Below are positions 3,062 through 20,289 of a stretch of 20,289 nt of DNA, one piece after another. Source of the stretch: Baffinella frigidus. Lineage: Eukaryota > Cryptophyceae > Cryptomonadales > Baffinellaceae. Below the pieces are notes generated by a model. That model ran no database searches. It had not been told where the DNA came from and was given only the letters and a program-made list of their open reading frames with translations. Made by a program: the position numbers and the translations under genes. How positions within the stretch are numbered: the stretch's first letter is position 1; each line of letters begins with the position of its first letter. The stretch is from NCBI GenBank assembly GCA_026770585.1, contig MU646865.1, positions 1 through 20,289 of the forward strand, given 5' to 3'.

Positions 3062-3115
3062 CTACTCCGCAGGCTTCGCAGCCGCCTGGGCCGCCTTGAC
3101 CCGCTCGAGAAGCTC
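3062..3115 (-). CDS. TTC27: TTC27 last exon with stop codon
   Basis: Encodes ELLERVKAAQAAAKPAE and a TAG at 3064-3062. The acceptor is AACCAG|GAGCTT, phase 0. The alanine-rich C-terminal helix is an expected end for the family. The sequence downstream becomes a tandem repeat at once. Confidence 0.87.
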   Translation of the reverse strand, partial: ELLERVKAAQAAAKPAE

Positions 3116-6100
3116 CTGGTTCAGGGTTTGGGGTTTGGTGTTGGGGTTTAGGGTTTAGGATTTGAAGTTTGGGGCGGGCGGTTTAGGGTTTGGGGTTTAG
3201 GGTTTGGGGTTTAGGGTTTAGGGTTTAGGGTTTAGGGTCTAGGGTTTAGGATTTAGGATTTAGGGTTTAGGGCTGGGGTTTTGGGTTTTGGGGTTTAGAG
3301 TTAAGATTTTAGGATTCAGGATTTAGGCTTCAGGATTTAGGGTTAAGGATTTAGGGGTAAGGGTTAAGGGTTGAGGGTCTACTGTTTAGTGTTTAGGGGT
3401 TATGTTGGTTGCAATCCGATTGAACACATTTCACCCCGGATTAGGGGTCAGGCTGTCTGCCGTAGGATCCTAGTCCACGTACACGTTTAATGCACGGCAG
3501 ACGCGGTGCATGAGCAACCTTCAACCCTCAACCTTCACCCCTCACCTCGAGAGCATAAAGCCATGCCCCCTAACCCAGCGGCCACGTTTCGGGATTGTAT
3601 GAGTCCAAATTTACTCCCGGTTTGTGTTGGTCCTGTTTCGGGTTTCGTGTGTGTGTTGGTCCCGTTTCGGGTTTCGGGTTTGTGTTGGTCCGAACCTGGA
3701 GCCCGGCCATCTCCGGGGTGTCTTCAAACGAGTCCTTGCTCTTGGCGATTGACGACCTGGTACAGGTTCTTGGTTTCGAGATGCAGAGGTTACTCGCGAT
3801 TAAGAACACCTACCGTCCCTAGAGGGGGACTATGCTCCTAGGCAAAGAATACCGTAGGACCCTAGGAGTAGGGTTCAGTGTTCAAAGTTTAGGTTTTAGG
3901 GGCCGCTGTCGAGCGAGGTTGGCGCGAAATCAAAAGCCAAGGTCAAAAATCGACCTCGGCTTTTCCGTAGGAACCCCCCTATGTCCCTACCATAGGGCCT
4001 ATGGATTACGTTTATATGGACGGTTCCCATCTCGCTCGGCAGCGGTTGGGGTAAGGGGGGGCACAGACGGGAGGCCCTGTACCGCGGCGCTGCTAGGGAT
4101 TTAGTGTTCAATAAAGAGAGTTGAGTGTTCATGGGTTAGGGTTTAGGGTTTAGGGTTTGGGTTTAGGGTTTGGGGTTTAGGGTTCAGGGTTTAGGGTTTA
4201 GGGTTGAGGATTCAGGGTTCAGGGTTCAGGGTTTCGGGAATCGGGTTGAGGGTTTAGGGTTTCGGGAATCGGGTGTAGGGTTTCGATTTTGAGGTTTAGG
4301 GTTCAAGGTTTTGGGTTTCGGGTTTCGGGTTTCGTATTTAGGGTTTCGTATTTGGGGTTTCGTATTTAGGGTTTCGTATTTGGGGTTTCGTATTTAGGGT
4401 TTCGTATTGAGAGTTAGGGGGGGGTTACGTGAGCGCGGACTTGGATGCAAAGAGGCTCTGCGCGCTGCCGTCCCTGAGGTACGCCTCGACGACGTGCGTC
4501 AGGGTGCGCGCGACGCCTTGGAAGGCCTTCTCGTCAGACTGCCACCCGGCGACCTGCGAGTTTGCGTGGTGGTGGTGGTGGTGAGTGAGGGTGGCTGATG
4601 TAGGTGCGAGGGTTCAGGGTTTAGGGTTTTGAGTAAGTGCAACGCCCTTGAAGGCCTTTTCGTCGGGCTGCCACCCGGCGACCTGTGTGGGGGTTAGGGT
4701 TTAGGGTTGAGGGCCATCCTCTCAAGGTGCTCTCATGTCCCCTAAGAGGCTCTGCTCGATCCCGTCCCGCAGGTACCCTACACGGGAGTACAAGTTCAGG
4801 GTTTAGGGTTTGTGTTTTTTGTGTGCGCAACGCCTCTGAAGGCTTGCTGGCCAGGTTGCCAACCGGCGACCTGGTGTTAGGGTTATGGTTGAGCGTTTGC
4901 GGCGTTACTCGAGCTCCGTTGAGTGGTGCCCCCAAGGGTATCCCTTAGGTGGCGAGTAGGCTCATACCGTAGGGCCCTAGGACCTGCCTACGACCTCTTG
5001 GCAGGCAAATTTGACTGCCTCGCCACTTAAGGGATATCCCCAACGTTTGACATATTGCCACGTCATCCTCGCACGCGTCTCGCATACCCTCTTTCGGGTC
5101 TTGGGTATGAAACCAGAAACGTTTTTCTTCTTCCCTTTTTCAGACCCACCACACAGAGGGCTACGAAGGGATTTTCGGGCACTCGGTGCCCGAGTTTCCG
5201 TTACCTTATCCGTGGGAACCTCTCTATGCCCCCACGTGTTGCCTACCGTAGGGTCCTGGGCCTTATCGCTTAGGAGTGATGCAAAATCCCTTCGAAGTCC
5301 TGGGTGTGGTCTAGGGTTTAGGGTTGAATTTCACGAGAACCCACGGGCAGCATACCTGGAGGCATCGGAGGGTCTTGCGGCTTCGGGGTTCGGGTTTGCA
5401 GGACTCTCGAGCTTCTCTCATGCGAACCCTGAACTTCTTTGGGGTTTCGGGTCTAGGGAGGGAACCTGGCGGCAGCGGAGGGCCGTGCGGCTTCGGGTGC
5501 CGGGTTCCGGGTTTCGGGTTTCGGATCCAGGGTCTCGGATCTCGGGGTCTAGGGAGGGCAGAGGGCAACTGGCGGCATCGGCGGGCCGTGCGGCGGTTTT
5601 CGGTTTCCGGGTTTCGGGTTTCGGATCTTGGATCTATGGTCTTGTTCGTACAGGATCTGGAGGCAGCTCAGGGCCTTGGGGCTCCGCATTTCGGGTTTCA
5701 GGTTTCGGGTTTCGTGTCTCGGGGCAAGGCTTCACCTGCATCATACTCTAGGGTAGCATACCTGGCGGCATCGGAGAGCCTTGCGGCGGCACTCGAGCTC
5801 CGTGGACTAGTGTCCGCGTTCTTCTCTGTTCATCAGACTTATCTGGAGTTTAGGACTGAATTTCGCGAGAACCTACGGGCAGCATACCTGACGGCATCGG
5901 AGGGCCTTGCGGCGGCACTCGAGTTCCGTGGACTGGTGTCCGCGGTGCTTCAGGTACTCGGCGTACACGTCCCATACCTTCGCGTCATCGGCCACCTGAT
6001 TTGCAGGTTTATGAATTAGGGTTTAGGGTTTAGGATTTAGCACAGGGGAAGGAAAGGGCATGCGAAGCCCCCGCCAAAGGGACATCCAAGGCCCCCACCA

Positions 6101-7868
6101 AAAGGGGCTTCTGGTGTCCGCTCCGTGGACATCAGTGTTAAGGGTTTAGCACAGGAGAGGGAAATGAGATCAGTACCAGCTTCTCGTAATTCGGGGTTGG
6201 GGCTCAGTGTTTCGGATTTCAGGTTTCGGGTTTCGGGTTTTAGGTTTCGGGTTTCGGGTTTAGGGTTTAGGGTTTCGGAAATGCCTGGTTGGTGACGGCG
6301 GTGAGGAGCTTCTTGAGGCGCATGCGGAAGCCCAAACCCGACACCCTGAACCTTTAACCATAAACTCCAAACCCTAACCGCTAAACCCTACCTGCGGGTT
6401 TCGTGTTTCGTCTTCCGTGTCTCTGGTTTCGCCTTTTGGGTTTCGGGGTTTGAGGTTTTGTGTTTTGTGTTTAGGGTTTAGGGTTTAGGGTTTAGGGTTT
6501 AGGGTTTAGGGTTTAGGGTTTAGGGTTTAGGGTTTGTTGCCTGATTGGTAAGGGGTTCCGGGTGGTTTTGTTGGGGGTTTCGGGTATATGCCTGGTTGGT
6601 GACGGCGGTGAGCAGCTTCTCGTGGCGCATGCGGAAGCTCAAACCCTGGACCCTTAAACCCCCTGAACTCGAAACCCTAAGGGATTCGTGTTGAGAGTTT
6701 CGTGTTCAGAATTTCGGGTTTCGGTTTCGGGGATGCCTGGTTGTTGACGTTTTAGGTTTTAGTTTTTAGGTCTAGGGTTTAGGGTTTAGGGATTTGGGTT
6801 TCGGGTTGAGAGTGTTGGGGGTTTCGAGTTTCGGGTATATGCCTGGTTGGTGACGGCGGTGAGCAGCTTTTCGAGGCGCAAGCGGAACCGGTCTGCCCCC
6901 TCCAGTTCCGCTGCGGAAAAAACTCAAGGAGTCAGCGCCCTGCCATCGCTCGAGTTCCAACCCCCGTAGGAACCTAGAGCGTTGCGTTCTTTTCCCGCAG
7001 AAACAATAAATTGAAATGGTCAACGTTGACGGTTCCGGCACAAAATTACAAACTTTTACCATAGTTGCATTATTTATATTTGGCCGCGTAAATGATGTTG
7101 CATTATTCATGCTCTGAACACGTTCTAGCATACGGCAGTCAAAAACTGCGGTTGCTGATGAGCTTCTCGAGGCGCATGCGGAAGCGGTCTGCCCCCTCCA
7201 GTTCCGCTGCTCATAGGGTTGGAGGTTAGGGTTTCGTGTTTCTTGTTTCGTGTTTCGTCTTTCGTCTTTCGTGTTTCGTGTTTCAGGGTTCGGTTTCCGG
7301 TTTCCGGTTACCGGTTTCCGGTTTCCGGGTTCCAGGTTTCGGGATTCGGGATGATTGGGCACGCACGATCCTCGGCCTTGTCGACGATCAGCGCTTCGGG
7401 TTTCGGATCTTGTGGATTTGAGAATTTTGAGTTTGAGGTTTGGGGTTTGAGGGTTTGGGGTGTGGGATTTGGGATTTGAGATTCCGGGATGATTGGGCAC
7501 GCACGATCTTCGGCCATGTCAACGAGCAGCGCTTCGGGTTTCGGATTTCGCGGGTTTGAGGGTTTGGGGTGTGGGGTGTGGGGTTTCGGGTTTTGGGATT
7601 CGGGATGATTGGGCACGCACGATCCTCGGCCTTGTCGACCAGCAGCGCGAGAATGTGTGCGTCCACCTGAGAAGAGCCAGCGTTCAATAATTGCGTATAA
7701 AAACAGATGGAATTGAAATCACATTGGTTTAAATCAAATTTACCTTGTGGAAGGCCGGGATCCGGATTTAGGGTAGAAAGTCATTTTCAAGGATTCGCAG
7801 GAGTTCCCCAGTGGTGCGGAGGGCCAGGATCAATGTACAGCAACTCCCGAACCTTGCCACCCAAACCT

Positions 7869-7899
<31 letters not shown>

Positions 7900-10800
7900 A
7901 CCCGACACCTCTTTCTCGCGGATGCCGAGGAGTTCCCCGGTGGCGTGGAGGATCAGGATCAATGTAAAGCAACTCCCAAACCTGAAACCCCAACCCTAAA
8001 CCCTAAACCCCTAAACCCTAAACACCTCTTTTTCGCGGATGGCGAGAAGCTCCCCGGTGGCGTGGAGGACCAGGGCCCACTTCTTGAGGCGGACCGCTGC
8101 TTCGCGCAGGTTCTGCCAAATCTGCTTGACGAGTGAGAAAGTGTGTCAGCAAGAGAGAGAGAGATTTGGTTTACAGGAACCAATTGACCGGGTTGGAGGA
8201 TACAGCTGACCAGGTTATAGGAAGCAGCTGACCGGGCTAGACGGTCAGCTGTTTGCCAAGTCCTGGTTGCCTCGCGCAGGTTCTGCCAGATCTGCCGGGA
8301 GTGAGAGCGAGAGGCTGACATGCCAGCAAGAGAGGGAGAGGGAGAGGGAGAGGGAGAGGGAGCGGGAGAGAGAGACTGTCAGCAAGAGAGATGATTTGGT
8401 GTACATCGTACAGCTGACTGGGCTAAATGAAACAGCTGACCGGGCTACACGGTCAGCTTTTTTGCCACGAACGAGGCAGGGTTTAGGGTTGAGGGGTTTG
8501 AGGACCTTCCAGGAGTCTCGGCGGAGCTTGAGGGCCTCTTCGAAGGCTTGCAGGGCCTTTCGGTTTTCGGATTTCGGGTTTCGGGTTTCAGGTTTTCGGG
8601 ATTCGGGTTTCGGGATTCGGGTTTTCAGTTTCGATTTTCGGGTCGGTCCCAACTGTTTGTTTTACAGCACTCGAGACAATGTCGCTTCACTTGGGCCTTT
8701 TCCCGGCGTTTTCGTGGTTTTCGGACCTTCCAGGAGTCTCGGCGGAGCTTGAGAGCCTCTTCGAAGGCTTGTAGGGCCCCCTCCCAGTTCGACGTGCCCA
8801 TGTGCACAGCACCTGGTTCATGGTCGATTTAAGGTTACTATTACTACTATGATCATCATTATTATTATTAGGTTTCAGGGTTTAGGGTGTAGAGTATAGG
8901 TTGCAGGGCCCCCTCCCAGTTGGACGTGCCCATGTGCACCAGGCCTGGTTTGGGATTAATATTTATTTACAATTTACTATAAGTTTTTATCACTTTTGTA
9001 TTTATTTGTCTATGCGGGGTTGGGGGTTAGGGGTTAGGGTTCAGGGTTCAGGGTTTAGGGTTTGGGGTTGGGGTTCAGGGTGCAGGTGCAGGGCCCCCTC
9101 CCAGTTCGATGTGCCCATGTGCCCCGCGCCTGGTTTACGGTCGGGTTAAGGTTACTATTACTATTACTATTAGTACTTGTTTTCATTTTATTTTGATTGA
9201 TTTATTTGAGAGTCTGGGGTTTATTGTTTTGTACTATTTTGTTTTGATTTAAGGGTTGAGTGTTATTTATTCATTTAAGGGTTGAGGGCTTGGGGGGTCA
9301 GGGTCTAGGCTGTGTAGGGTGTAGGGTATAAGGGTCAGGTTTCAGGGTTCAGGGTGTAGAGCATAGGTCGCAGGACCCCCTCCAAGTTCGACGTGCCCAT
9401 GTGCACCGCGCCTGGAATAGGGTTGAAGAGTTTGTTTTTTAATGATGTGGGGGCTCGGGGCTTAAGATTTATGGTTGAGGGTCTAACGTGAAGGGGTTTG
9501 GGGATAGAGATGAGGGTTTAGGGTTGAGACCCCCCCCCCTGTCCTGCGTGCCCCACAATAGGTGGGGGTGAGGGGGATTTAGGGTTTAGGTGTTAGGGTT
9601 TAGGGTTTGGGGTTTAGGGTGTACCGATGTTGCCCCAGGACTCGAATGATTCTGGCTCCTGCTGCACCACGCGGAGGAACGCCGAGACTGCAATTTGGGT
9701 TCATCTTTTATGGTTTAGGGTTCAGGGTTTAGGGTTCAGGATTTAGGGCTTATGCCACAAAGCGGGTTTCGGGTTGAGGGTTGAGGGTTGAGGGTTTAGG
9801 GTTAAAGGTTTGGGGTTCATAGTTCATGTGTATGGTTTAGGTTTCAGGGTTCAGGGTGTAGGGTATAGGGTTAAAGGTGCATGGTTCAGGATTCAAGGTT
9901 CGGCGTCCAGGGTTCACAGTTCAGGTTTCAGGGGTGGGGATTGAGCGTGTCGGGTTTAGGGTTCAGGATTCACGATTTATAATTTATGGTTTGGGGTGCA
10001 TAGCTCAGGGTTTGGTGGTTTGGAATGTGTTAGGGTTGAGGGAGCTGCCTGCCGTGTCCCACTCCTTCAGGGTGTAGGGATGAGGGGGTCCGGAGTACGT
10101 AGCGACATTTTTCTCGTTGAGGGTGTAGGGTTGAGGGTGTAGGGTTGAGTGTGTGGGGTTCAAGGTGTAGGATTGAGGGGGTTGCCTGCCATGTCCCACT
10201 CCTTCAGGGTGTAGGGTTTATGGTGTGGGTTTCAGGGTGTAGGGTTGAGGGTGTAGGGTTGAGGGTGTGGGGTTGAGGGTGTAGGGTTGAGGGTGTAGGG
10301 TTGAGGATGTGGGGTTGAGGGTGTAGGGTTGAGGGTGTAGGGTTGAGGGTGTAGGGGTTAAGGGGCTGCCTGCGGTGTCCCACTCCTCCTCCTTCATCGC
10401 CGCGCACCCGAGCTTGAACCTGGTTCAGGGTGTGGGGGTTGGGGTGTGGGGTGTAGGGTGCAGGGTGTAGGGTGTAGGGTGAGGGGTTTGGGGCGAGTGT
10501 CTAGAGTTTGGGGTTTGGGGTTGAGGGTTAAGGGTATTGGGGGTACAGGGTTCAGGGTGCAGGGTGTAGGGTGTAGGTAAATTGGAAAGCAATCGGAGCG
10601 CGGGGTGTTTGGGGTTCAGGGTTTAGGGTTCAGGGGTTCAGGTTGAGGGTATAGTGTTCAAGGAACAGGGTTTTGGGTTTAGGGTTCAGGGTGTAGGGTT
10701 TAGGGTTTAAGGGAAATACCAGCTGTCAGGGTTCAGGGTGTAGGGTTTTGGGTTTAAGGGAAATACCAGCTGTCAGGGTACATGGGCGAGATTGCCAGAG

Positions 10801-13800: not shown

Positions 13801-16800
13801 GTACGCAAACGAGAGCCGCTCCGATGCCGCCGGTTCCTGTTAGTTCAGGTTTTAGGGTTTCGGGTTTCGGGGTTAGGGTGTAGGGTTTGGGGTTTCGGGT
13901 GTAGTGTTCGGGGGAAAGGGGTCGTTTTGGAGTCAAGAAAATACCTCGTCTTTGTACTGACCGACCAAGGCTTGCATCTGGCAGACTACTACTAAGTGGA
14001 CGATCTAATTTTGTAGTAGAAACACGTCACCTTTAGGGGGGAATACCTCATCTTTGTACTGGTCGACGAGGACTTGCATCTGGAGGCACGCGCGATCGAC
14101 CGTTTGCACCTTGGTCAGCTCTATCCGGCACCTGTGTTGGGTTTTGGGTTTAGAATTTAGGGTTGGGGGTTGGGGGTTGGGGGTTTGGGGTTGGGGGTTG
14201 AGGGTACAGGGTAAAGGGTATAGAGTTGAGCATTTGGGGTTTGGGGTTTAGGATTCAAGGTTTAGGTTTTAGGTTTTAGGGTTCAGTGTTCAGTGTTCAG
14301 TGTTCAGTGGTTAGGGTTTGTTAAGTTACTTGCTCTTCACGGAAAGTTTTCAGTGTTGAGTGTTCAGGGTTCAGGGTTCAGAGGTTCGAGTTTCGGGTGA
14401 CCGGGAGAGGAGGGAGGTGGTGAAAACGACCCAGTTGGTCACCTCAATCCCCTACCCCCGAAACCATCAAACCTCACATTCCCAAACCCTGCACCCCTTC
14501 CAGGTGGTCTTGACTCTGCAGGGGCTCTCGAGACTGTGCTGGCGCTGCAGGCAGAGCAACTCGTCGCCCGTATTACTCTCCTGCTGTCTGCCCCTCTCCC
14601 CCCTGGCGCCTCTGCAACCGTCACCCGAAAAGCCCCGAGGAACGCACCGGGAGAGGAGGGACGTGGTGAAGACAACCCAGTTGGTCTAGGGTTTAGTGTA
14701 GGTTCAGGGTAGGAAGGTTCAGGGTAGGTTCAGGGTTCAGGGTACAGGGTTTCGGGTGTAGTGATCAGGGTAACCGGAGAGGGAGGTGGTGAAAACGACC
14801 CAGTTGGTTGTAAGGTAGGTTTTGGGTAGGTTCAGGGTGCAGGGTGCAGGGTTCAGAGGTTCGGGGGTTTGAGTCACCGGGAGAGGAGGGAGGTGGTGAA
14901 AATGACCCAGTTGGTCGCGTGGAGGAGAACGCGCGAAATCAACGCCTGATTACGGGTTTCGGGGGTTAGCTTCGTCGCGGAGGCCCATAAGCACCCCATG
15001 CGGGTTTGGGTTACAGGGTTTAGGGGTTAGGGGTTCAGGTTTCGGGTTTCAGGGTCCGGTATTCGTGCTTCAATTGGTCGCGTGCAACAGAACCCGCGAG
15101 ATCAGCGCCTGGTGTAGTTTAGGGGTTTGGGTCTCGGTGTACGGGTTTCGGGCTCAGGGGCTCCGTAGCTCGGGTTCTGGGATTTGAGGTTTCGGGTTTC
15201 GGGTTTCGGGTTTCGGGTTTCGGGGTTAGGATTTCGGTTTTAGGGCGTAGGATTTCGGGTTTGGGGGTTGGGGTTTGAGCTTTAGGGTACCATCTGCTGC
15301 TCGCGGTTCATCTCGTCGCGCGCGCGGCTTCGGGTTTTGGGTTGGGGTTCCGGGTTCCGGGTTTCGGGTTTCAAGCTTCGGGCTCACGGTTTTGGGCCTC
15401 GGATTTCAATATCCGGGTTCCTCTTCGGGAGGTCTTTCGCCACGTGCCTCCTCAACCGAATATGAAGGGTGTAGGGTGTAGGAGGGTGGAGGGTGGAGGG
15501 TGGAGGGTGTAGGTAAGGAGGGTGGAGAGGGTAGGGTGTAGGGGCGCGACCATCTGCTGCTCGCGGTTCATCTCGTCGCGCGCGCGGTTCCGCCTCACCC
15601 ACGCACACCGTGTGAGAAGGATCGCCTGTTTGAGGGTTAGGGGTCAGGGGTGTAGGGTTTCTCGGTTATGGCCGACGGTTTGGGGCCCCAAACCCCAAAA
15701 CCCCAACCCCAAACCCTCAGCCCCAAACCCCTAAAACCCTCTCAGCCTGGTCAAAGTTTGGGAGGGGGCGCTGCTCCTATCAACTCCTGAACCTCAAACC
15801 CCAGCAAACCTCAAACCCCCAAACCCCAAACCCAAACCAAAAAAACCTTAACCCCAAAGCATTACCCCCAAAGCACCAAGCCCAGCGCCTCAAGCCTCAA
15901 CCCTAAACCTCTCGTCACCTGATCGACGTTGGAGAGGGGGAGCGGCTCGTCAATGCCCTGGTCCCCATCCGTAGAGCCCTCAACCCCAAACCCTATCCCC
16001 TAACCCCTCCTCACCTGATCGACGTTGGAGAGGGGGAGCTGCTCCTATAAACCCCTGAACCTAACACACTAGCAACCCCTGGACCAAAAACCTCCAACCC
16101 CAAACCCCCCACCCGAAAAAACAACTAACCACCAAAGCCTAACCCCCAATGCCCAAAGCCAAAACCCTAAATCCCGCACCCCTCTTCACCTGATCGACGT
16201 TCGAGAGGGGGAGCTGCTCGTCAATGCCCTGGTCCCCATCGAGCCTGCCATGGAGTTGGGGGTTTGGAGTTTGGTGTTTGGTGTTTAGGGTTTGGGGTTC
16301 AGGGTTTAGGGTTTGGTGTTTGGTGTTGAGAATTTGGGGTTTAGGATGTCGGGTTTAGGGTTCAGGGTGTAGGTTTTAGGGTTTGGGGTTCAGAATGTAG
16401 GTTTTAGGGTTTAGGGTTCAGGATTTAGGGTTGGGGGTTTGGAGTTCAGGGTTCAGGATTCAGGGTTCAGGGTTCAGGGCTTAAAGTTTAGGGTTTAGGT
16501 CCTAGGGTTTAGGGTTCAGTGGTCAGGGTTTAGGGTTGAGGGTTCAGTGGTCAGGGTTGAGGGTTTAGGGTTCAGGGTTTAGGGTTTAGGGTTGAAGGTT
16601 CAGGGTTTAGAGTTTAGGGTTTAGGATTTAGGTTTTAGGGTTTAGTGTTTAGGGTTTATGGTTTAGGATTTAGGTCCCAGGGTTTAGTGTTCAGTGTTTG
16701 GGGTTCAGGGTTTAAAGTTTGGGCTTGTGTTTTGAGGTATGGGCTTAGGTTTCAGGGCTTAAGGGCAAGGTTCGACTGACAGGATGAACCCTCAACCCTC

Positions 16801-19800
16801 AACCCTGAGCCCTAAGCCCTAAGCCCCAAGCCCTAAGCCTTGAACCCTGAGCCCTAAGCCCTGAACCCTGAGCCCTCAATCCTGAGCCCCACGCCCTGAA
16901 CCCTAAGCTCTAAGCTCTAAGCCCAAAGCCCTGAACCCAGAGCCCTGAGCCCTGAACCCTGAACTGTGAACCCTGAACCCGAAACCCTGAAACCTGAACC
17001 CACAACCCTCAACACTGAGCCCTAAGCCCTGAACCCGAACCCCTAAACTCTAAGCCCAACGCCCTCAACTTCACGTTGTCGAGAATATTGCTGAACCCTG
17101 ACCCTCAACCCTGAGCCCTCAGTCCTGAACCCTAGCCCCTTAACCCGAAGCCCAAAGCACTCAACCTGACGTTGTCGAGAATGTCGCAGTCTTCGTTCTT
17201 CCCCACCTGAACAGGGCTTAGGGTTTAAGTTTTCGGGTTTAGGGTTTAGGGTTTAGGGTTTAGGGTTTTGGGTTTATGGTTTAGGGTTCAGGGGGTAGGA
17301 TATACATCGAGAGCAAGAGTACAGGGGGGGGGCGAGGTTTCAGGTGGAAACGCGAGATTTCGGGGGGGGGAGGGTCGAGCATGTCAACTTGAGAATAGTC
17401 TGACAGCCGAGTGAGGCAGAGCTAGACCTAATAAGTACCAGAGGTTTAAGGTTTGGGGATAAGGTTTCAATGTTTAGGGTTTAGAGTTTGGGGCTTAGGG
17501 TTTAGGGACCTCCGTAACGCCGGCGCCGACAGATTTCTCATAACCTGTTTTAGGCTTTAGGGTTTAGAGTTGAGGGTTTAGAGTTGAGGGTTTGGGGTTT
17601 AGGGTTTAGGGTTTAGGGTTTCGGGTTTAGTGTTTAGGGTGTAGGGTTGAGTGTTTAGGGTTTAGGTTTCACAACCTCAAGGATCAGGAAAGACGTTTAA
17701 GGTTTAGCGTGTAGGGTTGCTAGGTTGTTGGTACAAATATGCTGGGTTGCTGGTGCAAATAACCTGGTTTCGGGTTTCGGGTTTCGGGTTTCGGGTTTCG
17801 GGTTCAAGTTTCTCTTAACCTGAAGGGTCGGGGAAGACGTCTTCCTTATCCCCCTCCTTCTCCTCCTCCTTCTCCTCCTTCACCTCCTCCGCTTTCTGGT
17901 TGGGGGTTTGTGGTTGAGGGATAGGATGGCCCGTCCGAACCCCCCACCATCTCCCCCCTCTCCTCCTTCGCCCCTTCCAGTTTCTGATTTAGGGTTTGTG
18001 GTTTGGGGGTTAGGGTGTACAGTGTATGTCGTCAGTGCCCCCCCCCTCTTCCTTCACCTCCTGTGGTTTCTGGATGGAGGTTTGCGGTTTGTGGTGCGGG
18101 GTTTGGGGTTTGTGGTTTGGGGTTTAGTTGTTAGGGTGTAGATTGTAGGTTTTAGGGTTTAGTGATAGGATTGCGGAGTAGTGTTCAGGGTTTAGGTGGA
18201 GCAGCGCGCCAGGACCGGTGACGGTTTAGGGTTTACGGTTCGTGGTTCGGGATTCAGGGTTCTGAGTTTAGGGTTGAGGGTGTATGGACCGGACCTTCTT
18301 GAGGCGGGAGCCGTCCTTGGAGAAGTTGGCGAGGCAGACTAGCTGTGCCAGATGGTCGCGACCCACTTATAAGGGAGTCACCACCTCCTTATACATGGAC
18401 GGCAACCCCTGACGACCCCCTTCACAAGGGGTTGTGACTCCCTTAACAAGGGGGAAAGGACCTTCTTGAGGCGGGAGCCGTCCTTGGAGGAGTTGGCGAG
18501 GCAGACTAGCTGCGCCAGGTGGTTCTGCTGGAACCTGCGTTTTGAGTGGAAGGTTGGGGGTCGGGAATGTCGAGTTTGGGGTTTGAGTTTTGGGTTTTAG
18601 GGTGTGGGGTTTGAGGTTTGGGTTTGGGGTTTGGAGTTTGGGGTTTAGTGTTTCGTGTTTGGGTTTCGGGTTTCGGGTTCCGGGTTCAGGGTTTAGGGTT
18701 TAGGGTTTCGGGTTTCGGGTTCAGGGTTCAGGGTTTAGGGTTTTGGGTTTTGGATTTCGGGCTTCGGGTTTCGGGTTCAGGGTTTCGGGTTTAGGATTTA
18801 GGGTGAGGGTTTAGGGTTAAGGTTCAGGGTTTTGGGTTTCGTGTTTCGTGTTTAGGTTTTAGGGTTCGGGGTAGGGTTTGGGTTTAGGATTTTGAGGTTT
18901 GGCTTGTCGGCTTTGGGTTGAGGGTGTTGGGTCTAGGGTTTGGGGGTGACTTGCGGCGGATGCCGATCTTGCCGGTGACCTCGTACTCGAGGCCACCCGC
19001 TTCCTAAACCTAAGCTCTAAACCCCAAACCCTAAACCCAAACCCAAACCCAAACCCAAACCCACACCCAAACCCACACCGCAGGAGTGCTCACACCGCAC
19101 TCCTGCGGTTTAGGGTTTAGGGTTTGGGGGTTACTTGCGACGGATGCCGATCTTGCCGGTGACCTCGTACTCGAGGCCTGAGCACACCTGTGGTAAGGGT
19201 TCGTGTTTAGTTTACACAAGTCACGTCCTATTAGTATTATAGACTCTGCCCGTATGTCTCCCTTCTAGCCAGCGCCCTGTTGCAGAGGTCTTGCCGGTGA
19301 CCTCGTACTCGAGGCCTGAGCACACCTGCAGTTTTGGTTTGGGGGTTAGTTTGGGTCTGGGGTTTTGGGTTTTGGGTTTTGGGTTGAGAGTTTAGGGTTT
19401 GGGTAATAGAGTGTGGGATTCGAATGAGAGGAGTGGGGCTTACAGTCCGGGGTTTGGGCTTCGGGGTGTTTCGTGTTTCGTGTGTACGGTTTGGGCAGTG
19501 TATGGTTCAGGGATTCGGGGTTCGGGATTGAGAATTCGGTGTTCAGAATGCAAAATTCGGGCGTCGGTGTTCAGGGTTCAGGGTCAGGGTGCAAAAGCAG
19601 ACATGGGCTCACCCAAGCGCCTTTCGGGTTTCGGGTTCAGAATTCACAGCTTCAGAGTTGGGGTTTCGGGTTTCGGGTTTCGGGTTTAGGGTTTCGGGTT
19701 TAGGGCTGAGGGGTTAGGGTTTAGGTTGAGGAGTCAGGAGAAGACCTGGGCCCGTTCAAGCGCCTCCTCGGACTTCACGTCCTCCCAATACGCCGAATGC

Positions 19801-19811
19801 GCCAGCGCCAC
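3062..19811 (-). CDS. TTC27: TTC27/Emw1-like TPR protein, 25 exons, 5' partial
   Basis: Exons (minus strand, 5' to 3'): 19811-19746, 19187-19135, 18534-18462, 17895-17820, 17544-17510, 17206-17166, 16244-16190, 15625-15551, 14945-14878, 14131-14047, 13836-13752, 13194-13076, 12001-11949, 11499-11382, 10822-10767, 10419-10370, 9687-9625, 8812-8727, 8121-8026, 7666-7621, 6910-6843, 5995-5888, 4553-4429, 3756-3696, 3115-3062. All junction phases agree and the sum is 1815 nt, 604 residues plus stop. The order of conserved blocks follows TTC27: the TGK-I-RRKFQ block, DCDIL, PLSNVDQA, the LVDQYKDE block, YPPRWGLQKELA, LYEGLGLYKEMVECY, then three canonical TPRs at about residues 316-416. About 240 N-terminal residues are missing relative to the animal protein. 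The family is known to be essential in yeast (cell-wall integrity) and has been linked to spliceosomal U5 assembly in animals. That role is not visible here. Family assignment is from remembered family motifs, not a search. Confidence 0.9.
3116..3695. repeat. Intron 24: heptamer repeats
   Basis: Positions 3116-3400 are mostly TTTAGGG, TTTGGGG and TTTAGGA units. Positions 3400-3600 are lower in repeats, with no coding signal recognised. From 3627 to 3690 the intron start (GGACCAACACA on the minus strand) occurs three times, a small tandem duplication next to the donor of exon 24. Confidence 0.75.
3696..3756 (-). CDS. TTC27: TTC27 exon 24
   Basis: Encodes SSIAKSKDSFEDTPEMAGLQ after the T completed across the splice. 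The acceptor is TACCAG|GTCGTC and the donor CTCCAG|GTTCGG. It fits the charged segment that precedes the C-terminal helix of TTC27. It has less conservation to lean on than the others, but both phases agree exactly. Confidence 0.82.
3903..4045. mobile_element. MITE-like foldback element in intron 23
   Basis: The ends CCGCTGTCGAGCGAGGT and ATCTCGCTCGGCAGCGG are inverted copies (two mismatches). The centre contains CCTACCATAGGGCCTA, like the centres of the other elements. About 143 bp, non-coding. Confidence 0.72.
4429..4553 (-). CDS. TTC27: TTC27 exon 23 (longest exon)
   Basis: Encodes 41 residues plus AC. It begins VAGWQSDEKAFQGVARTLTH and goes on through VVEAYLRDGSAQSL to FASKSAL. It matches the family's 'GW..D...F..+......+++.Y' helix. 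The acceptor is CGCAG|GTCGCC and the donor CTCAC|GTAACC. Confidence 0.9.
4641..4870 (-). repeat. Two upstream echoes of exon 23, one split by a telomere-like insert
   Basis: Copy 4682-4641 repeats VAGWQPDEKAFKGVA with its acceptor. Copy 4870-4825 repeats VAGWQPGQQAFRGVA, is interrupted by CCCTAAACCCTGAA-type sequence, and resumes at 4776-4742 as YLRDG.EQSL. The latter pair looks like a nearly whole exon copy with an insertion. Confidence 0.82.
4939..5036. mobile_element. MITE-like foldback element, family 1
   Basis: The ends TATCCCTTAGGTGGCGAG and CTCGCCACTTAAGGGATA are inverted copies. It shares its arms and an inner AGGGCCCTAGGACCTGCCTA with the element at 13626-13729. About 98 bp, non-coding. 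Confidence 0.8.
5143..5311. mobile_element. MITE-like foldback element in intron 22
   Basis: The left end GACCCACCACACAG...CTACGAAGGGATTTT and the right end AAAATCCCTTCGAAG...CTGGGTGTGGTC are inverted copies. The centre contains CCTACCGTAGGGTCCT. About 169 bp, non-coding. Confidence 0.75.
5356..5818 (-). repeat. At least four 3' echoes of exon 22, downstream
   Basis: Copies end at 5762 (CAG|GTATGC, 57 nt), about 5569, 5466 (CAG|GTTCCC) and 5356 (CAG|GTATGC). The last also repeats about 30 bases of intron after the donor. Sequence between them is TTTCGGG-type. Confidence 0.85.
5888..5995 (-). CDS. TTC27: TTC27 exon 22
   Basis: Encodes 36 residues, beginning VADDAKVWDVYAEYLKHRGH and continuing QSTELECRRKALRCRQ. 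The D..+W..YA......G......E.+.KA.+C pattern is typical of the TTC27 C-terminal region. The acceptor is AATCAG|GTGGCC and the donor CGTCAG|GTATGC. Confidence 0.92.
6285..6749 (-). repeat. Three 3' echoes of exon 21, downstream
   Basis: Copies 6749-6737 (13 nt), 6636-6592 and 6331-6285 repeat FRMR..KLLTAVTNQ and keep GC donors (GCATCC, GCATAT, GCATTT). Confidence 0.88.
6843..6910 (-). CDS. TTC27: TTC27 exon 21, GC donor
   Basis: Encodes ELEGADRFRLRLEKLLTAVT then NQ, matching the family's 'L...L.+LF..+TS.V..D' region. The acceptor is CTGCAG-like GCAG|CGGAAC. The donor is AACCAG|GCATAT, the third GC donor of the gene. The exon 7 kb-side copy at 7157-7206 has no donor. Confidence 0.88.
6911..7156. 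other. Non-repetitive intron filler, intron 20
   Basis: About 190 bases (6960-7150) of ordinary mixed sequence inside an otherwise heptamer-filled intron. No ORF, foldback or motif recognised. It is the junction side of the exon 21 duplication. Confidence 0.55.
7157..7206 (-). repeat. 5' echo of exon 21, upstream
   Basis: Repeats the first 50 nt of exon 21 (ELEGADRFRMRLEKL) with the AG acceptor, then breaks off. Confidence 0.87.
7367..7532 (-). repeat. Two 3' echoes of exon 20, downstream
   Basis: Copies 7532-7505 and 7394-7367 repeat ALLVDKAED and the donor ATC|GTGCGTGCCCAATC, including about 18 bases of intron. Confidence 0.88.
7621..7666 (-). CDS. TTC27: TTC27 exon 20
   Basis: Encodes VDAHILALLVDKAED plus C, equivalent to the family's 'D...L..LV.A+.D' helix. 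The acceptor is TCTCAG|GTGGAC and the donor GATC|GTGCGT. The donor context is atypical (C before GT) but is preserved in both echoes. Confidence 0.87.
7793..7956 (-). repeat. Two 3' echoes of exon 19, downstream
   Basis: Copy 7956-7909 repeats LHATGELLGIREKE with donor GAG|GTGTCG. Copy 7830-7793 repeats LALRTTGELLRI and has lost the donor. Confidence 0.85.
8026..8121 (-). CDS. TTC27: TTC27 exon 19
   Basis: Encodes IWQNLREAAVRLKKWALVLH then ATGELLAIREKE, phase 0 at both ends. With the W of exon 18 it reproduces the family's 'W..IW.N........+..A+.....LL..+' helical pair. The acceptor is AAGCAG|ATTTGG and the donor AAAGAG|GTGTTT. Confidence 0.92.
8122..8465 (-). repeat. Tandem ~170-bp duplication with 5' echo of exon 19
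   Basis: The segment 8113-8290 is repeated at about 8284-8465. Shared parts, in order, are the first 25 nt of exon 19 with its acceptor (echo 8291-8267), a GTGAGA/CAGCAAGAGAG tract, GATTTGGT, and CAGCTGACCGGGCTA with ACGGTCAGCT. In the second unit a GGGAGA microsatellite (8330-8385) has expanded. Confidence 0.85.
8506..8558 (-). repeat. 3' echo of exon 18, downstream
   Basis: Repeats the last 53 nt of exon 18 (ALQAFEEALKLRRDSWK) almost exactly with donor AAG|GTCCTC. Together with the upstream copies it splits the exon near the same internal point (GGCCCTRCAAG). Confidence 0.9.
8727..8812 (-). CDS. TTC27: TTC27 exon 18, TPR 3
   Basis: Encodes AVHMGTSNWEGALQAFEEAL then KLRRDSWK, the rest of TPR 3 (W..A...F.EALK......W). 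The acceptor is AACCAG|GTGCTG and the donor TGGAAG|GTCCGA. This is the only complete copy among four copies that share its 5' half and two that share its 3' half. Confidence 0.93.
8901..9411 (-). repeat. Three 5' echoes of exon 18, upstream
   Basis: Copies starting at 9411, 9129 and 8944 repeat the acceptor (CCAG|GCGCGG, CCAG|GCGCGG, CCAG|GCCTGG) and HMGTSNWEGAL, then break off at the same place, after about 43 nt. A shared ACTATTACT-type AT-rich tract follows two of the copies (8830-8870, 9150-9180). Confidence 0.9.
9625..9687 (-). CDS. TTC27: TTC27 exon 17, TPR 2/TPR 3 junction
   Basis: Encodes SAFLRVVQQEPESFESWGNI plus G. It ends TPR 2 (F....+..P) and starts TPR 3 (..WGN+G). The acceptor is TTGCAG|TCTCG and the donor ATCG|GTACAC. 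No echo of this exon was found. Confidence 0.9.
10049..10207 (-). repeat. Two 3' echoes of exon 16, downstream
   Basis: Copies 10207-10186 and 10069-10049 repeat KEWDTA from the end of exon 16 and keep GC donors (CAG|GCAACC, CAG|GCAGCT). Between them lie TTGAGGG/TGTAGGG repeats. Confidence 0.82.
10370..10419 (-). CDS. TTC27: TTC27 exon 16, TPR 2, GC donor
   Basis: Encodes W/FKLGCAAMKEEEWDTA plus G, the W...G......+.+.A core of TPR 2. The acceptor is AACCAG|GTTCA. The donor is CCGCAG|GCAGCC, again GC rather than GT. The frame continues as V-SAFLRVV in exon 17. Confidence 0.92.
10705..10732 (-). repeat. 3' echo of exon 15, downstream
   Basis: About 27 bp identical to 10753-10779, covering the last 12 nt of exon 15 (CCTGACAGCTG) and the donor GTATTTCCCTTAAAC. 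Confidence 0.8.
10767..10822 (-). CDS. TTC27: TTC27 exon 15, end of TPR 1
   Basis: Encodes AIAMFREALAISPMYPDS plus TG. It completes TPR 1 (A at repeat position 20, P at 32) and begins TPR 2. The acceptor is AAGCAG|GCGATC. The donor is AGCTG|GTATTT, splitting the conserved Trp codon. Confidence 0.92.
10952..11357 (-). repeat. About six 3' echoes of exon 14, downstream
   Basis: Copies end at 11343, 11244, 11155, about 11070, 10997 and 10952, covering 12 to 64 nt of CHCLKTGDLKQ-type sequence. All but the one at 11070 keep a GC donor (GCAGAA, GCAACA, GCGAAT, GCGAGC, GCTGAA). The 10997 copy reaches back to KFAMARRW. Confidence 0.87.
11382..11499 (-). CDS. TTC27: TTC27 exon 14, start of TPR 1, GC donor
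   Basis: Encodes GYIKEDPAWFEESWELSGKK then FAMARRWHAQHCLKTGDLKQ. The D..+++++WELS..+.A.A.R..A...L..G++ pattern matches TTC27 at the start of its canonical TPRs. The acceptor is TTCCAG|GTACA. The donor is AAGCAG|GCAGAA, a GC donor. No GT at that point keeps the frame into AIAMFREAL of exon 15. Confidence 0.92.
11607..11890 (-). repeat. Tandem ~125-bp repeats with echoes of exon 13
   Basis: Two full units, from about 11607 and from about 11735, and the start of a third near 11859. Each full unit carries a copy of the end of exon 13 with a donor (11674-11643, GAG|GTATGA; 11797-11771, GAG|GTGCGA). The rest is unique intron sequence including ATTCTAAAGTTGA. The echoes are two bases longer than the exon between CTGGC and GTCATG, so they are out of frame. 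Confidence 0.85.
11949..12001 (-). CDS. TTC27: TTC27 exon 13
   Basis: Encodes VREQLDKRKTPYMLAVM plus GG. It corresponds to the family's '++QL++.+TP.+.+LLGD' segment. The acceptor is AACCAG|GTGAGA and the donor ATGGG|GTGCGA, phase 2. Confidence 0.9.
12180..12300. repeat. TTTATGG heptamer array
   Basis: About 11 almost perfect tandem copies of TTTATGG (12221-12297) preceded by looser copies. The variant differs from TTTAGGG at one base. It is homogenised only here, which points to local expansion. Translated, it gives a periodic hydrophobic string that is not a gene. Confidence 0.9.
12432..12841 (-). repeat. Three 3' echoes of exon 12, shortening downstream
   Basis: Copies at 12841-12768 (74 nt), 12636-12573 (64 nt) and 12474-12432 (43 nt) repeat the end of exon 12 (CYVAQDESEIAERK). 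Their donors are GGAAG|GTGTGG, GGAA|GTCATG and AGAAG|GTGTGG. Each is shorter than the one before it with distance from the intact exon. Confidence 0.9.
13076..13194 (-). CDS. TTC27: TTC27 exon 12
   Basis: Encodes 39 residues, beginning MMKVGMLRTAADLYEGLGLY and continuing KEMVECYVAQDESEIAERK. This is the family's 'A..++E.L.++++++.CY...G....AE' helical repeat. The acceptor is CCACAG|GGATG and the donor CGGAAG|GTATGA. It is one of the longest exons. Confidence 0.93.
13429..13499 (-). repeat. 3' echo of exon 11, downstream
   Basis: About 71 nt, over 80% of exon 11 (SERLSFAYSVPYPLRWGLQK then ELAD), with donor GACG|GTGCCA. The element at 13626-13729 separates it from the intact exon. Confidence 0.88.
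13626..13729. mobile_element. MITE-like foldback element, family 1
   Basis: The ends are ATCCCTTAAGTGGCGAG and its inverse CCGCCACTTAGGGGAT. The inner motif AGGGCCCTAGGACCTGCCTA is shared exactly with the element at 4939-5036. About 104 bp, non-coding, in intron 11 just downstream of exon 11. Confidence 0.78.
13752..13836 (-). CDS. TTC27: TTC27 exon 11
   Basis: Encodes EPAASERLSFAYSVPYPPRW then GLQKELAD, phase 1 out. The acceptor is AACAG|GAACC and the donor GACG|GTGCGA. The ERL.F.Y....PP.W.LQ+ELA motif is diagnostic for the family and precedes the TPR array. Confidence 0.92.
13945..13985 (-). repeat. 3' echo of exon 10, downstream
   Basis: Repeats CQMQALVGQYKDE from the end of exon 10 with donor GAG|GTATTT, about 60 bp downstream. 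Confidence 0.87.
14047..14131 (-). CDS. TTC27: TTC27 exon 10
   Basis: Encodes CRIELTKVQTVDRACLQMQV then LVDQYKDE. The acceptor is ACACAG|GTGCC and the donor GATGAG|GTATTC. The pattern TV.RA..Q.Q.LVDQ..D is among the most recognisable parts of TTC27 and anchors the identification. Confidence 0.92.
14402..14809 (-). repeat. Three 3' echoes of exon 9, downstream
   Basis: Copies at 14809-14775, 14686-14648 and 14441-14402 repeat TNWVVFTTSLLS and donors CCG|GTTACC, CCG|GTGCGT and CCG|GTCACC. The spacing is about 125 and 245 bp, with 7-mer repeats between. Confidence 0.88.
14878..14945 (-). CDS. TTC27: TTC27 exon 9
   Basis: Encodes ALISRVLLHATNWVIFTTSL then LS plus CG. The acceptor is AATCAG|GCG and the donor CTCTCCCG|GTGACT, phase 2. 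NW.+.T.SLL.R is the strongly conserved TTC27 segment just before the ERA...Q.L.DQ block. Confidence 0.9.
15073..15108 (-). repeat. 5' echo of exon 9, upstream
   Basis: Repeats the first 36 nt of exon 9 (ALISRVLLHATN) with the CAG acceptor, then breaks off. Confidence 0.85.
15291..15327 (-). repeat. 3' echo of exon 8, downstream
   Basis: Identical over 37 nt to the end of exon 8 (RARDEMNREQQM) with donor ATG|GTACCC. Confidence 0.88.
15551..15625 (-). CDS. TTC27: TTC27 exon 8
   Basis: Encodes 25 residues, AILLTRCAWVRRNRARDEMN then REQQM. The acceptor AAACAG|GCGATC was chosen because it alone gives phase 0 with exon 7. The donor is CAGATG|GTCGCG. The pattern A+LL..C.......DEM...+M matches the family helix after PLS.V.Q. 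Confidence 0.87.
15747..16044 (-). repeat. Three 3' echoes of exon 7, downstream
   Basis: Copies end at donors 16015 (CAG|GTGAGG), 15919 (CAG|GTGACG) and 15747 (CAG|GCTGAG). They cover about 30, 51 and 29 nt of exon 7. The middle copy still reads DGDQGIDEPLPLSNVDQ. The most diverged one has GC in place of GT. Confidence 0.85.
16190..16244 (-). CDS. TTC27: TTC27 exon 7
   Basis: Encodes LDGDQGIDEQLPLSNVDQ. The acceptor is GGCAG|GCTC and the donor GATCAG|GTGAAG. PLS.V.QA across exons 7-8 is a family-diagnostic turn before a helical repeat region. A nearly complete downstream copy (15919-15969) lacks an acceptor in the right phase, so this one is taken as the real exon. Confidence 0.85.
17070..17090 (-). 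repeat. 3' echo of exon 6, downstream
   Basis: Repeats ATTCTCGACAACGT of exon 6 and a donor-like AAGTTGAG. It lies about 75 bp downstream of the intact exon. Confidence 0.65.
17166..17206 (-). CDS. TTC27: TTC27 exon 6
   Basis: Encodes VGKNEDCDILDNV plus AG. The D.DIL.N.+L pattern across exons 6-7 corresponds to the conserved 'DIL..P.L' stretch of the family. The acceptor is TTCAG|GTG and the donor GTCAG|GTTGAG. Confidence 0.8.
17510..17544 (-). CDS. TTC27: TTC27 exon 5 (35-nt micro-exon)
   Basis: The acceptor is AACAG|GTTATG and the donor ACGGAG|GTCCCT. With the G left by exon 4 it reads GYEKSVGAGVTE. It is needed because exon 4 ends in phase 1 while exon 6 begins in phase 0, and this stretch repairs exactly that. 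No homology is recognised, so it is supported by phase and splice sites only. No echo was seen. Confidence 0.65.
17676..17695 (-). repeat. 3' echo of exon 4, downstream
   Basis: About 20 nt resembling the DVFPDP end of exon 4, followed by GAG|GTTGTG, a match to the real donor TCAG|GTTAAG. Short and diverged. Confidence 0.5.
17820..17895 (-). CDS. TTC27: TTC27 exon 4, charged K/E-rich linker
   Basis: Encodes 25 residues of lysine/glutamate-rich low complexity (KAEEVKEEKEEEKEGDKEDV) ending FPDPS, phase 1 out. The acceptor is ACCAG|AAAGCG and the donor TCAG|GTTAAG. It falls where TTC27 proteins have a variable linker, so length and composition are probably lineage-specific. Confidence 0.78.
17955..18069 (-). 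repeat. Two 5' echoes of exon 4, upstream
   Basis: Copies at 18069-18045 and 17983-17955 start at an AG and read QKPQEVKEEG and QKLEGAKEER when the CAG is included, like the QKAEEVKEEK of exon 4. Both stop short of the donor and are diverged. Confidence 0.65.
18295..18355 (-). repeat. 3' echo of exon 3, downstream
   Basis: Repeats 61 of the 73 nt of exon 3 (HLAQLVCLANFSKDGSRLKK, one Ser changed to Phe) with donor AAG|GTCCGG. The copy lies beyond the foldback element at 18370-18445. Confidence 0.87.
18370..18445. mobile_element. Short foldback (MITE-like) element in intron 3
   Basis: The 16-bp arms TAAGGGAGTCACCACC (18370-18385) and GGTTGTGACTCCCTTA (18430-18445) are inverted copies with one mismatch, around a 44-bp centre. 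It sits between exon 3 and its echo. No coding capacity. A target duplication is not clear. Confidence 0.6.
18462..18534 (-). CDS. TTC27: TTC27 exon 3
   Basis: Encodes FQQNHLAQLVCLANSSKDGS then RLKK, continuing the conserved block (family pattern FQ...+AQL+L). The acceptor is ACGCAG|GTTCC. It is preferred over the TTCCAG eight bases further in because exon 2 ends in phase 2. The donor is AAGAAG|GTCCTT. Confidence 0.87.
18951..18994 (-). repeat. 3' echo of exon 2, downstream
   Basis: Repeats the last 44 nt of exon 2 (GLEYEVTGKIGIRR) with donor CGCAA|GTCACC. There is no acceptor at the copy's left end. Confidence 0.85.
19054..19128. repeat. Perfect 12-bp hairpin at a telomere-repeat strand switch
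   Basis: CCGCAGGAGTGC (19078-19089) and GCACTCCTGCGG (19097-19108) are perfect inverted copies with a 7-base loop. CCCTAAACCC-type repeats lie to the left and TTTAGGG repeats to the right, so the whole stretch can fold back. Confidence 0.85.
19135..19187 (-). CDS. TTC27: TTC27 exon 2
   Basis: Encodes VCSGLEYEVTGKIGIRR plus two bases. The acceptor CCACAG|GTG was chosen over the internal TGCTCAG because only it keeps phase with exon 1. The donor is CGCAA|GTAACC. The L.YEVTGKIGIRRKFQ block across exons 2-3 corresponds to the conserved L.LTGALGKRTRFQ region of TTC27. Confidence 0.85.
19289..19325 (-). repeat. 5' echo of exon 2, upstream
   Basis: Near-identical to the first 37 nt of exon 2, including the CAG acceptor and VCSGLEYEVTGK. 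It is cut off before the donor. Confidence 0.85.
19746..19811 (-). CDS. TTC27: TTC27 exon 1 of window
   Basis: Encodes 22 residues, VALAHSAYWEDVKSEEALER followed by AQ, phase 0 at both ends. The acceptor is CACCAG and the donor is CAG|GTCTTC. It leads in frame into the next exon, whose conserved block follows a helical A..A..W motif in this family. The true first exons lie outside the window. Confidence 0.82.
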
Positions 19812-19977
19812 CTGGTGAGAGTGTGCGGTTTAGCGTTCGCGGATCGGTACATTTATGTTCGTATTTCGAGACCCGTATAAAGACGCGGGCGTAAAAATCT
19901 AGACGCGGGTGTAAAAATCTAGACGCGTTTGTGAAAATCCAGCCTTGAAACAAAGGCCACGGACAGCCTCGAGTGGT

Positions 19978-20013
19978 GACGTCCTCCCAGTACGCCGAAT
20001 GCACCAGGGCCTC
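19978..20013 (-). repeat. 5' echo of exon 1, upstream
   Basis: Repeats the start of exon 1 as EALVHSAYWED with its own AG (CGAAG|GAGG), then breaks off into unrelated sequence. It lies upstream of the intact exon and has no usable donor at the matching place. Confidence 0.8.
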
Positions 20014-20203
20014 CTTCGAGGATTTGGGGTATGGGGTGCAGGGTTCAGGATTTACGGTTTAGCGTTCACGGTGTAGGGTGTAGGGTGTAGGATGTAGGAT
20101 GTAGGGTGAAGGGTGTAGGGTGTAGGATGTGGGGTGTAGCGTTTAGGGTGAAGGGTGTAGGGTGTAGGATGTAGGGTGTAGGGGTGTAGGGTCCACCTCC
20201 ACG

Positions 20204-20289
<86 letters not shown>
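20204..20289. repeat. 86-base poly-C run at window edge
   Basis: Uninterrupted C to the last base. It follows TGTAGGG repeats and CCACCTCCACG. It may be a real G/C homopolymer or an assembly/sequencing artefact at a contig end. Confidence 0.9.

Follow-up and report, generated by a model that had tools for sequence, protein, structure and literature searches.

The first 20,289 nucleotides of contig MU646865.1 (label C553), here called the window and meaning the whole stretch of DNA analysed, carry a single gene of 25 exons whose introns are filled with partial copies of the exons that border them. The copying of exon edges is local, keeps to the strand of the gene and includes the splice sites. 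We lean towards reading the locus as a dense case of exon stuttering, a pattern described in chicken, in which a local fault of DNA repair or replication re-copies exon edges, often with an insert between the copies (hereafter also called echoes). The analysis rests on one assembly of a 382 Mb genome in 1364 contigs.

The gene lies on the minus strand and runs, in plus coordinates, from 19811 down to 3062. Its exon phases are consistent, and the joined frame gives 604 open codons followed by TAG; of the 24 introns, 21 begin with GT and 3 with GC, and all 24 end in AG. The product is a tetratricopeptide-repeat (TPR) protein by Pfam match, and the PDB matches, among the 60 of 78 listed, are general TPR proteins; it may be TTC27-like (TTC27/EMW1 family).

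When each exon was compared by Smith-Waterman alignment (score of at least 30) with all non-exon DNA of the window on both strands, 45 matches were obtained, all of them on the gene strand and 44 in an adjoining intron or flank. The lone distant match is a low-complexity one of exon E4 at 1798-1844, and no inverted exon copy was found. Judged against 500 dinucleotide shuffles (99th percentile 32, maximum 42), seven of the matches, scoring 30-33, are not significant by score alone. A second search took the exons with 8-base flanks as queries, at a threshold of 28 and with the non-adjacent introns rather than shuffles as control, and it yielded 53 copies in adjacent introns or gene flanks versus a single one (E3 at 6304-6320) in a non-adjacent space 11.4-fold larger. 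These 53 comprise 38 copies of 3' ends, every one downstream of its own exon (37 by script, plus nt 5-55 of E7, which the script classed as 'whole' and which is without the first 4 bases); 12 copies of 5' ends, every one upstream; and three internal pieces, two downstream and one upstream. Copies exist for 22 of the 25 exons, the exceptions being E5, E17 and E24, and in all introns except those after E5, E23 and E24 (21/24). With the arrays masked, the repeat pairs of the window as a whole number 71 direct and 3 inverted, and the latter touch no exon.

A preliminary description of this DNA had reported the same 22 exons, about 40 copies of 3' parts lying only downstream and about 12 of 5' parts lying only upstream, and had held that reversed copies at similar rates would speak against it. 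Its central observation is confirmed: none of the 53 adjacent copies is a 3' copy placed upstream or a 5' copy placed downstream. The word 'only' is right for all 38 and 12 end copies and fails for one internal piece, nt 72-104 of E23, which lies upstream of that exon at 4744-4776. This piece adjoins the 5' copy at 4821-4873, with an array between the two, and the pair is probably a whole-exon copy of E23 split by the array.

The splice dinucleotide is retained in 33 of the 38 3' copies (counting in the stop-codon end of E25) and in 12 of the 12 5' copies, so that 3' copies usually carry a donor and 5' copies an acceptor, as had been claimed. Of 10 copies of the GC donors of E14, E16 and E21, 9 keep GC; these donors are thus probably older than the copies. 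Exon parts measure 13-75 nt. Beyond them, homology runs without gaps into the intron for no more than 5 nt in 21 of the 38 3' copies and for 8-65 nt in the other 17, while in 9 of the 12 5' copies it ends within 6 nt. Since 3' copies include intron bases, 17 of 38 by at least 8 nt, their template was DNA.

The pattern is not limited to one gene: a search beyond the window, which the preliminary description had proposed, found the polarity again in stretch L222 and in two exons of stretch L231. We took 20 stretches at preset coordinates, of which 6 were at least partly readable; L222, picked by coordinate alone, is among them and holds a second gene, presumably bestrophin-like judging by eye. 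Its ten exons were read by eye, and a frame break between X6 and X7 makes it probable that one or more exons are missing. At a score cut of 32, set without a shuffle control, 11 matches were found, none inverted and none reversed, and 9 of the 11 follow the polarity rule in adjacent introns: six 3'-end copies downstream, one further copy of 3' type downstream (X6 nt 7-51) and two 5'-end copies upstream. The remaining two are one fused downstream copy in which the end of X8 (8843-8874) is joined directly to X9 (8875-8920), exons now 265 bases apart (the site comprises 8359-8423, 8689-8734 and 8843-8920); either this intron arose after the copy, or RNA was the source of the copy. In L231, a stretch chosen for its arrays, a kinase-like exon has three 3' copies downstream, and a second exon is accompanied by a 5' copy on its upstream side and a 3' copy on its downstream side, all seen by eye. 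L235, which adjoins the window, contains an exon-like pair that is 56/60 alike.

Frequent 8-mers cover 44% of the intron and flank bases, mostly as degenerate telomere-like heptamers (TTTAGGG, TTCAGGG and TTTCGGG among others), which adjoin many copies and form array-like sequence between them. We asked whether the sequence between neighbouring copies is repeated outside the pair, requiring a score of 26 and a value above 200 shuffles; 52 of the 53 copies, the E23 exception being left out, gave 52 neighbouring pairs, of which 32 were tested. The spacer was unrepeated in 24 of these 32, two of which (E20 and E25) exceed the shuffles and miss the score cut. It was repeated in eight: twice at E13, twice upstream of E18, once upstream of E19, and at E1, E22 and E23, where the repeats are weak or otherwise explained. 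After the intact donors of E3, E10, E11 and E12 stands unique or hairpin-like sequence that is absent after the copy. Two related stretches in different introns, 13622-13684 and 4935-4990, are 81% alike and hairpin-like by eye, and sequence resembling them directly follows the donors of E3 and E11.

The preliminary description had ascribed the echoes to repeated plain tandem duplication, its breakpoints lying one inside an exon and the other in the next intron. On this reading, the inserts between copies would have been added later. Local same-strand copying of edges with their splice sites agrees with it, as do the E13 copies, which lie in overlapping head-to-tail units (a 142-nt match at distance 120), the intron units shared by the upstream copies of E18 and E19, the E20 and E25 spacers above the shuffles, and the junction flanks common to several echo pairs. 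However, with 24 of 32 spacers unrepeated, plain tandem duplication directly explains a minority of the pairs; at E3, E10, E11 and E12 homology ends no more than 5 nt into the intron despite the unique sequence after the intact donor, and the heptamers that make up much of the introns were left out of account. We therefore regard it as a distinct but lesser possibility. In many pairs the two copies instead resemble the borders of a single insertion whose flank was duplicated. Nor does the polarity follow from tandem duplication of necessity: it fits selection for an intact mRNA, but any local copying that spares one exon and its splice site gives the same result. The related claim that repeated rounds inflate introns agrees with our data, insofar as the introns gain length.

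Starting from what is observed, namely the anatomy, locality, orientation and polarity of the echoes, their recurrence in a second gene, the intact frame and the mostly unrepeated spacers, we picture the following course. A local fault of DNA repair or replication would re-copy one edge of an exon beside the original: either the final tens of bases together with the donor, or the initial tens together with the acceptor. Between the two copies, telomere-like heptamers or a hairpin element would often be inserted. Selection would retain an event only if one exon stays whole and its splice sites still work, and for this reason 3' pieces would be found downstream and 5' pieces upstream. Events would repeat at the same edges, some echoes being copies of echoes, and introns would grow as a result. 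Copy and insert may arise in one event, through the filling-in of a staggered break during repair or through fork stalling with backward template switching, which would occur at arrays or hairpins.

Several results weigh against this reading: (i) the head-to-tail units at E13 and upstream of E18 and E19 suggest that a single mechanism may not fit all cases. (ii) Array-like motifs are not enriched at 41 exon-internal breakpoints compared with random positions within the same exons (p = 0.35 to 0.51 at four thresholds), and such motifs inside exons are thus unsupported as the cause of the breakpoints. (iii) Twenty of the 52 pairs, with fewer than 40 non-array bases, were too array-rich for the spacer test, and repeated spacers could have been erased, as arrays evolve fast. 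(iv) In our judgement, the copied exon parts, at 13-75 nt, are longer than one would expect of staggered overhangs. (v) Eleven readable stretches outside the window, array-masked, hold 96 direct versus 75 inverted near pairs, and some have only 1-3 direct pairs; the window is therefore extreme, and not every stretch is alike. (vi) The differences between exons and echoes fall on codon position 3 in 101 of 161 cases, above a ceiling that we estimate at about 47% for a constrained exon and a neutral echo (p = 3e-5), and the contrast with the differences between echoes is only suggestive (Fisher p = 0.08).

These 161 differences, taken from 43 alignments (E4, being of low complexity, was omitted) and including repeated counts of those common to several echoes, are distributed 32/28/101 over codon positions 1/2/3, and 98 of them are synonymous versus 27% expected. 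Changes between C and G make up 25 of the 101 at position 3 and 2 of the 60 elsewhere. Differences confined to a single echo (15/14/37) are not clearly above 47% (p = 0.08). Between echoes, in ten hand-picked pairs sharing a junction, three of which overlap in E14 and one of which, in E13, has a doubtful junction, the differences number 14/9/20, which is closer to a neutral distribution but still leans towards position 3 (20/43, p = 0.05 versus one third). Sites at which the two echoes share a base that differs from the exon are distributed 1/0/11, and in L222, phased by hand, 30 of 48 differences are at position 3. Some of the divergence thus apparently built up between coding sequences, and our guess is that deep allelic variation lies behind the silent excess. 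A diverged paralogue was rejected as its source: in the readable genome the protein matches this locus only (20 matches, all on MU646865.1). In a genome sample of 67 ungapped direct pairs, 51 with at least 3 mismatches, mismatch periodicity was too weak to tell (174 in best phase, where the null averages 164 and reaches at most 176; 155 versus 156 for inverted pairs).

The silent excess, and the lean of echo-echo differences to position 3, would also be expected if the echoes were genuine parts of alternative exons, constrained by coding. We consider this improbable, because most pieces lack one splice end, the splice dinucleotide is lost in 5 of the 38 3' copies and a few pieces carry indels; the echoes are probably mostly not spliced. 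That RNA or cDNA was patched back into the gene is suggested by the L222 echo, which joins X8 to X9 without an intron, and by a junction match of E18 and E19 in the window (11 + 24 nt, score 50), though its 11 nt also resemble the intron end. A junction search of the window gene gave no clear exon-exon fusion: the 10 matches listed are 4-nt spills, weak or low-complexity matches, the ambiguous E18/E19 case and neighbouring pieces of E22 and E23. The fused L222 copy could also be explained by gain of the intron once the echo existed, and the retention of GT or GC in 3' copies, of AG in 5' copies, and of intron bases makes an RNA source highly improbable. To an assembly artefact arising from repeats we give almost no credence: array-rich DNA is hard to assemble, and the poly-C run at 20210-20289 is a doubtful spot, but the copies are diverged, polar and recurrent on other contigs, and the exons form one open frame.

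The repair or replication fault that we favour allows a bolder extension, which we hold to be rather unlikely: telomere-like repeat synthesis would act inside genes, breaks or stalled forks near exon edges being healed by re-copying of the edge and addition of heptamers, so that introns fill with arrays and echoes. The echoes would then be dated fossils of older exons, including an exon from before its intron was gained (L222: 8843-8920).

Exons, copies and example inserts are listed in Table 1.

Table 1. Features of the window; coordinates of the copies are those of the search with exons and 8-base flanks at threshold 28.
Feature	Position	Strand	Remark
Exon E1	19746..19811	-	first exon seen
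Exon E2	19135..19187	-	
Exon E3	18462..18534	-	
Exon E4	17820..17895	-	
Exon E5	17510..17544	-	no copy found
Exon E6	17166..17206	-	
Exon E7	16190..16244	-	
Exon E8	15551..15625	-	
Exon E9	14878..14945	-	
Exon E10	14047..14131	-	
Exon E11	13752..13836	-	
Exon E12	13076..13194	-	
Exon E13	11949..12001	-	
Exon E14	11382..11499	-	GC donor
Exon E15	10767..10822	-	
Exon E16	10370..10419	-	GC donor
Exon E17	9625..9687	-	no copy found
Exon E18	8727..8812	-	
Exon E19	8026..8121	-	
Exon E20	7621..7666	-	
Exon E21	6843..6910	-	GC donor
Exon E22	5888..5995	-	
Exon E23	4429..4553	-	
Exon E24	3696..3756	-	no copy found
Exon E25	3062..3115	-	with stop TAG
5' copy of E1	19979..20015	-	upstream
5' copy of E2	19289..19328	-	upstream
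3' copy of E2	18943..18994	-	downstream
3' copy of E3	18291..18356	-	downstream
5' copy of E4	17941..17989	-	upstream, low complexity
5' copy of E4	18046..18077	-	upstream, low complexity
3' copy of E4	17673..17696	-	downstream, score at cut
3' copy of E6	17064..17086	-	downstream
3' copy of E7 (nt 5-55)	15911..15969	-	downstream
3' copy of E7	16007..16044	-	downstream
3' copy of E7	15746..15776	-	downstream
3' copy of E8	15289..15327	-	downstream
5' copy of E9	15071..15111	-	upstream
3' copy of E9	14397..14440	-	downstream
3' copy of E9	14645..14686	-	downstream
Near-3' internal copy of E9 (nt 31-60)	14779..14808	-	downstream
3' copy of E10	13940..13981	-	downstream
3' copy of E11	13425..13498	-	downstream
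3' copy of E12	12763..12842	-	downstream
3' copy of E12	12572..12637	-	downstream, donor lost
3' copy of E12	12427..12474	-	downstream
3' copy of E13	11763..11798	-	downstream, in head-to-tail unit
3' copy of E13	11635..11673	-	downstream, in head-to-tail unit
3' copy of E14	10995..11068	-	downstream, GC donor kept
3' copy of E14	11149..11195	-	downstream, GC donor kept
3' copy of E14	11241..11273	-	downstream, GC donor kept
3' copy of E14	11337..11365	-	downstream, GC donor kept
3' copy of E14 (nt 88-113)	11071..11096	-	downstream, donor lost
3' copy of E15	10712..10738	-	downstream
3' copy of E16	10041..10066	-	downstream, GC donor kept
3' copy of E16	10178..10203	-	downstream, GC donor kept
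5' copy of E18	9087..9135	-	upstream, intron unit shared
5' copy of E18	8901..8950	-	upstream
5' copy of E18	9372..9415	-	upstream
3' copy of E18	8502..8557	-	downstream
5' copy of E19	8268..8295	-	upstream, intron unit shared
3' copy of E19	7905..7957	-	downstream
3' copy of E19	7781..7828	-	downstream, donor lost
3' copy of E20	7359..7394	-	downstream
3' copy of E20	7497..7532	-	downstream
5' copy of E21	7161..7210	-	upstream
3' copy of E21	6584..6636	-	downstream, GC donor kept
3' copy of E21	6281..6329	-	downstream, GC donor kept
3' copy of E21	6733..6749	-	downstream, short, GC donor kept
3' copy of E22	5755..5824	-	downstream
3' copy of E22	5348..5381	-	downstream, plus about 40 nt of intron
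3' copy of E22	5569..5609	-	downstream, donor lost
3' copy of E22	5464..5491	-	downstream
Internal copy of E22 (nt 55-89)	4897..4931	-	downstream
5' copy of E23	4639..4685	-	upstream
5' copy of E23	4821..4873	-	upstream
Copy of E23 (nt 72-104)	4744..4776	-	upstream, polarity exception
3' copy of E25	2944..2967	-	downstream, with stop codon
Long telomere-like heptamer array	16254..16750	+	example, G-rich on +, by eye
Insert between E3 and its 3' copy	18357..18461		hairpin-like ends (by eye), not repeated after copy

Downstream of the gene, 2726-2953 contains direct repeats of 39-49 nt (AAGTGGCC... units, by eye). At the other end, the poly-C run closes the window, and the 6312 contig bases that follow are N. 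Within 80 nt of 43 copies, the array flanks number 29 of C-type and 22 of G-type at 3' copies, and 15 and 0 at 5' copies; that is, 5' copies never adjoin arrays G-rich on the coding strand, whereas 3' copies adjoin both types. Array strand or fork direction as the source of the 3'/5' bias was dropped, its prediction differing from these counts.

Among viral contigs, no relatives of a 98-residue part of the protein were found, and one array pattern gave 0 matches. With looser patterns, bacterial genomes gave at least 120 matching stretches and viral contigs 81; the heptamer density in those loci longer than 1 kb is at most 5.3 per kb, versus 16.5 in the window. The array-matching loci L194, L136 and L112 look prokaryotic or viral and were rejected as related loci. 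In the viral contigs, L194:1-4360 and L136:4195-4410 contain CCCTGAA heptamers in runs of either orientation, which by eye seem to lie between genes. The dinoflagellate spliced leader, searched as a motif with up to 1 mismatch, gave 0 matches in the readable genome.

The preliminary description knew of no named account of such a pattern. One has since been published: exon stuttering, or sequence stuttering, was reported on the chicken dot chromosomes in February 2026 (Hron et al. 2026, PMC12954441), the one match to exon-stuttering terms in the literature collection searched. In chicken, lateral parts of exons with their donor or acceptor are copied in adjacent introns, in 115 genes and 236 introns; the exon part is 20-187 bp long (median 36 bp), the copies are arranged as imperfect tandems, gerbil genes are mentioned as data not shown, and the causes proposed, speculatively, are repair under replication stress or meiotic misalignment (PMC12954441). 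The gene described here likewise has edge copies with a splice site in adjacent introns, beside an intact exon and among simple-repeat-rich sequence. In keeping with exon stuttering, such copies exceed a shuffled control, matches are proximal rather than distal (53 vs 1), and the introns are heavy in simple repeats (44% of bases). As to tandem arrangement, the copies are direct; the spacer is repeated in 8 of the 32 pairs tested and borderline in 2 more, a further 20 pairs being too array-rich. Unlike in chicken, where 190 of 5,572 dot-chromosome introns (3.4%) stutter and the stuttered introns have length alleles between individuals (PMC12954441), 21 of the 24 introns of one gene are affected here, in one assembly, and telomere-like heptamers or hairpins often stand between the copies.

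Other known systems show partial likeness, and the first two are precedents, in kind, for the repair events pictured above. In Daphnia, new introns have 33 exon-end direct repeats of 4-12 bp, ascribed to staggered double-strand breaks (PMC4202315); there too terminal exon bases recur in the neighbouring intron, and repeated breaks were proposed to lengthen introns, but the exon parts here are 13-75 nt long and often several per intron. Interstitial telomeric sequences are inserted at breaks, some with direct target duplication, though rarely (3/66 loci and 2 complex cases; PMC7215372); unlike them, the present arrays are made of degenerate heptamers, and an allele lacking the insert is not known. 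When introns are gained by tandem genomic duplication, an AGGT within an exon gives rise to a new intron (PMC3443670); exon sequence is duplicated locally and in connection with splice sites there as in our case, but here it is existing introns that gain exon pieces. Intron gain by insertion would leave direct repeats at intron ends, which are not above control (mean 3.47 nt in 32 introns versus 3.27 in mismatched pairs). Introner transposable elements are related inverted-repeat elements that make introns; of possible bearing on them are the two related intron stretches described above, hairpin-like by eye. What is new is the lineage, presumably not a vertebrate one to judge by the genome size of 382 Mb and the heptamers, together with the density, the telomere-like inserts and the excess of silent differences.

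Stuttering across a whole gene, and again in a second one, of an apparently unrelated eukaryote suggests a general, repair- or replication-driven route of intron growth rather than an oddity of avian dot chromosomes. For gene-finders it is a warning, since nearly every intron of this gene holds decoy donors or acceptors attached to real coding sequence. The polarity and the copy-insert-copy layout render the mechanism testable, and the echoes may prove to be fossils, within one genome, that record exon sequence and the gain of introns.

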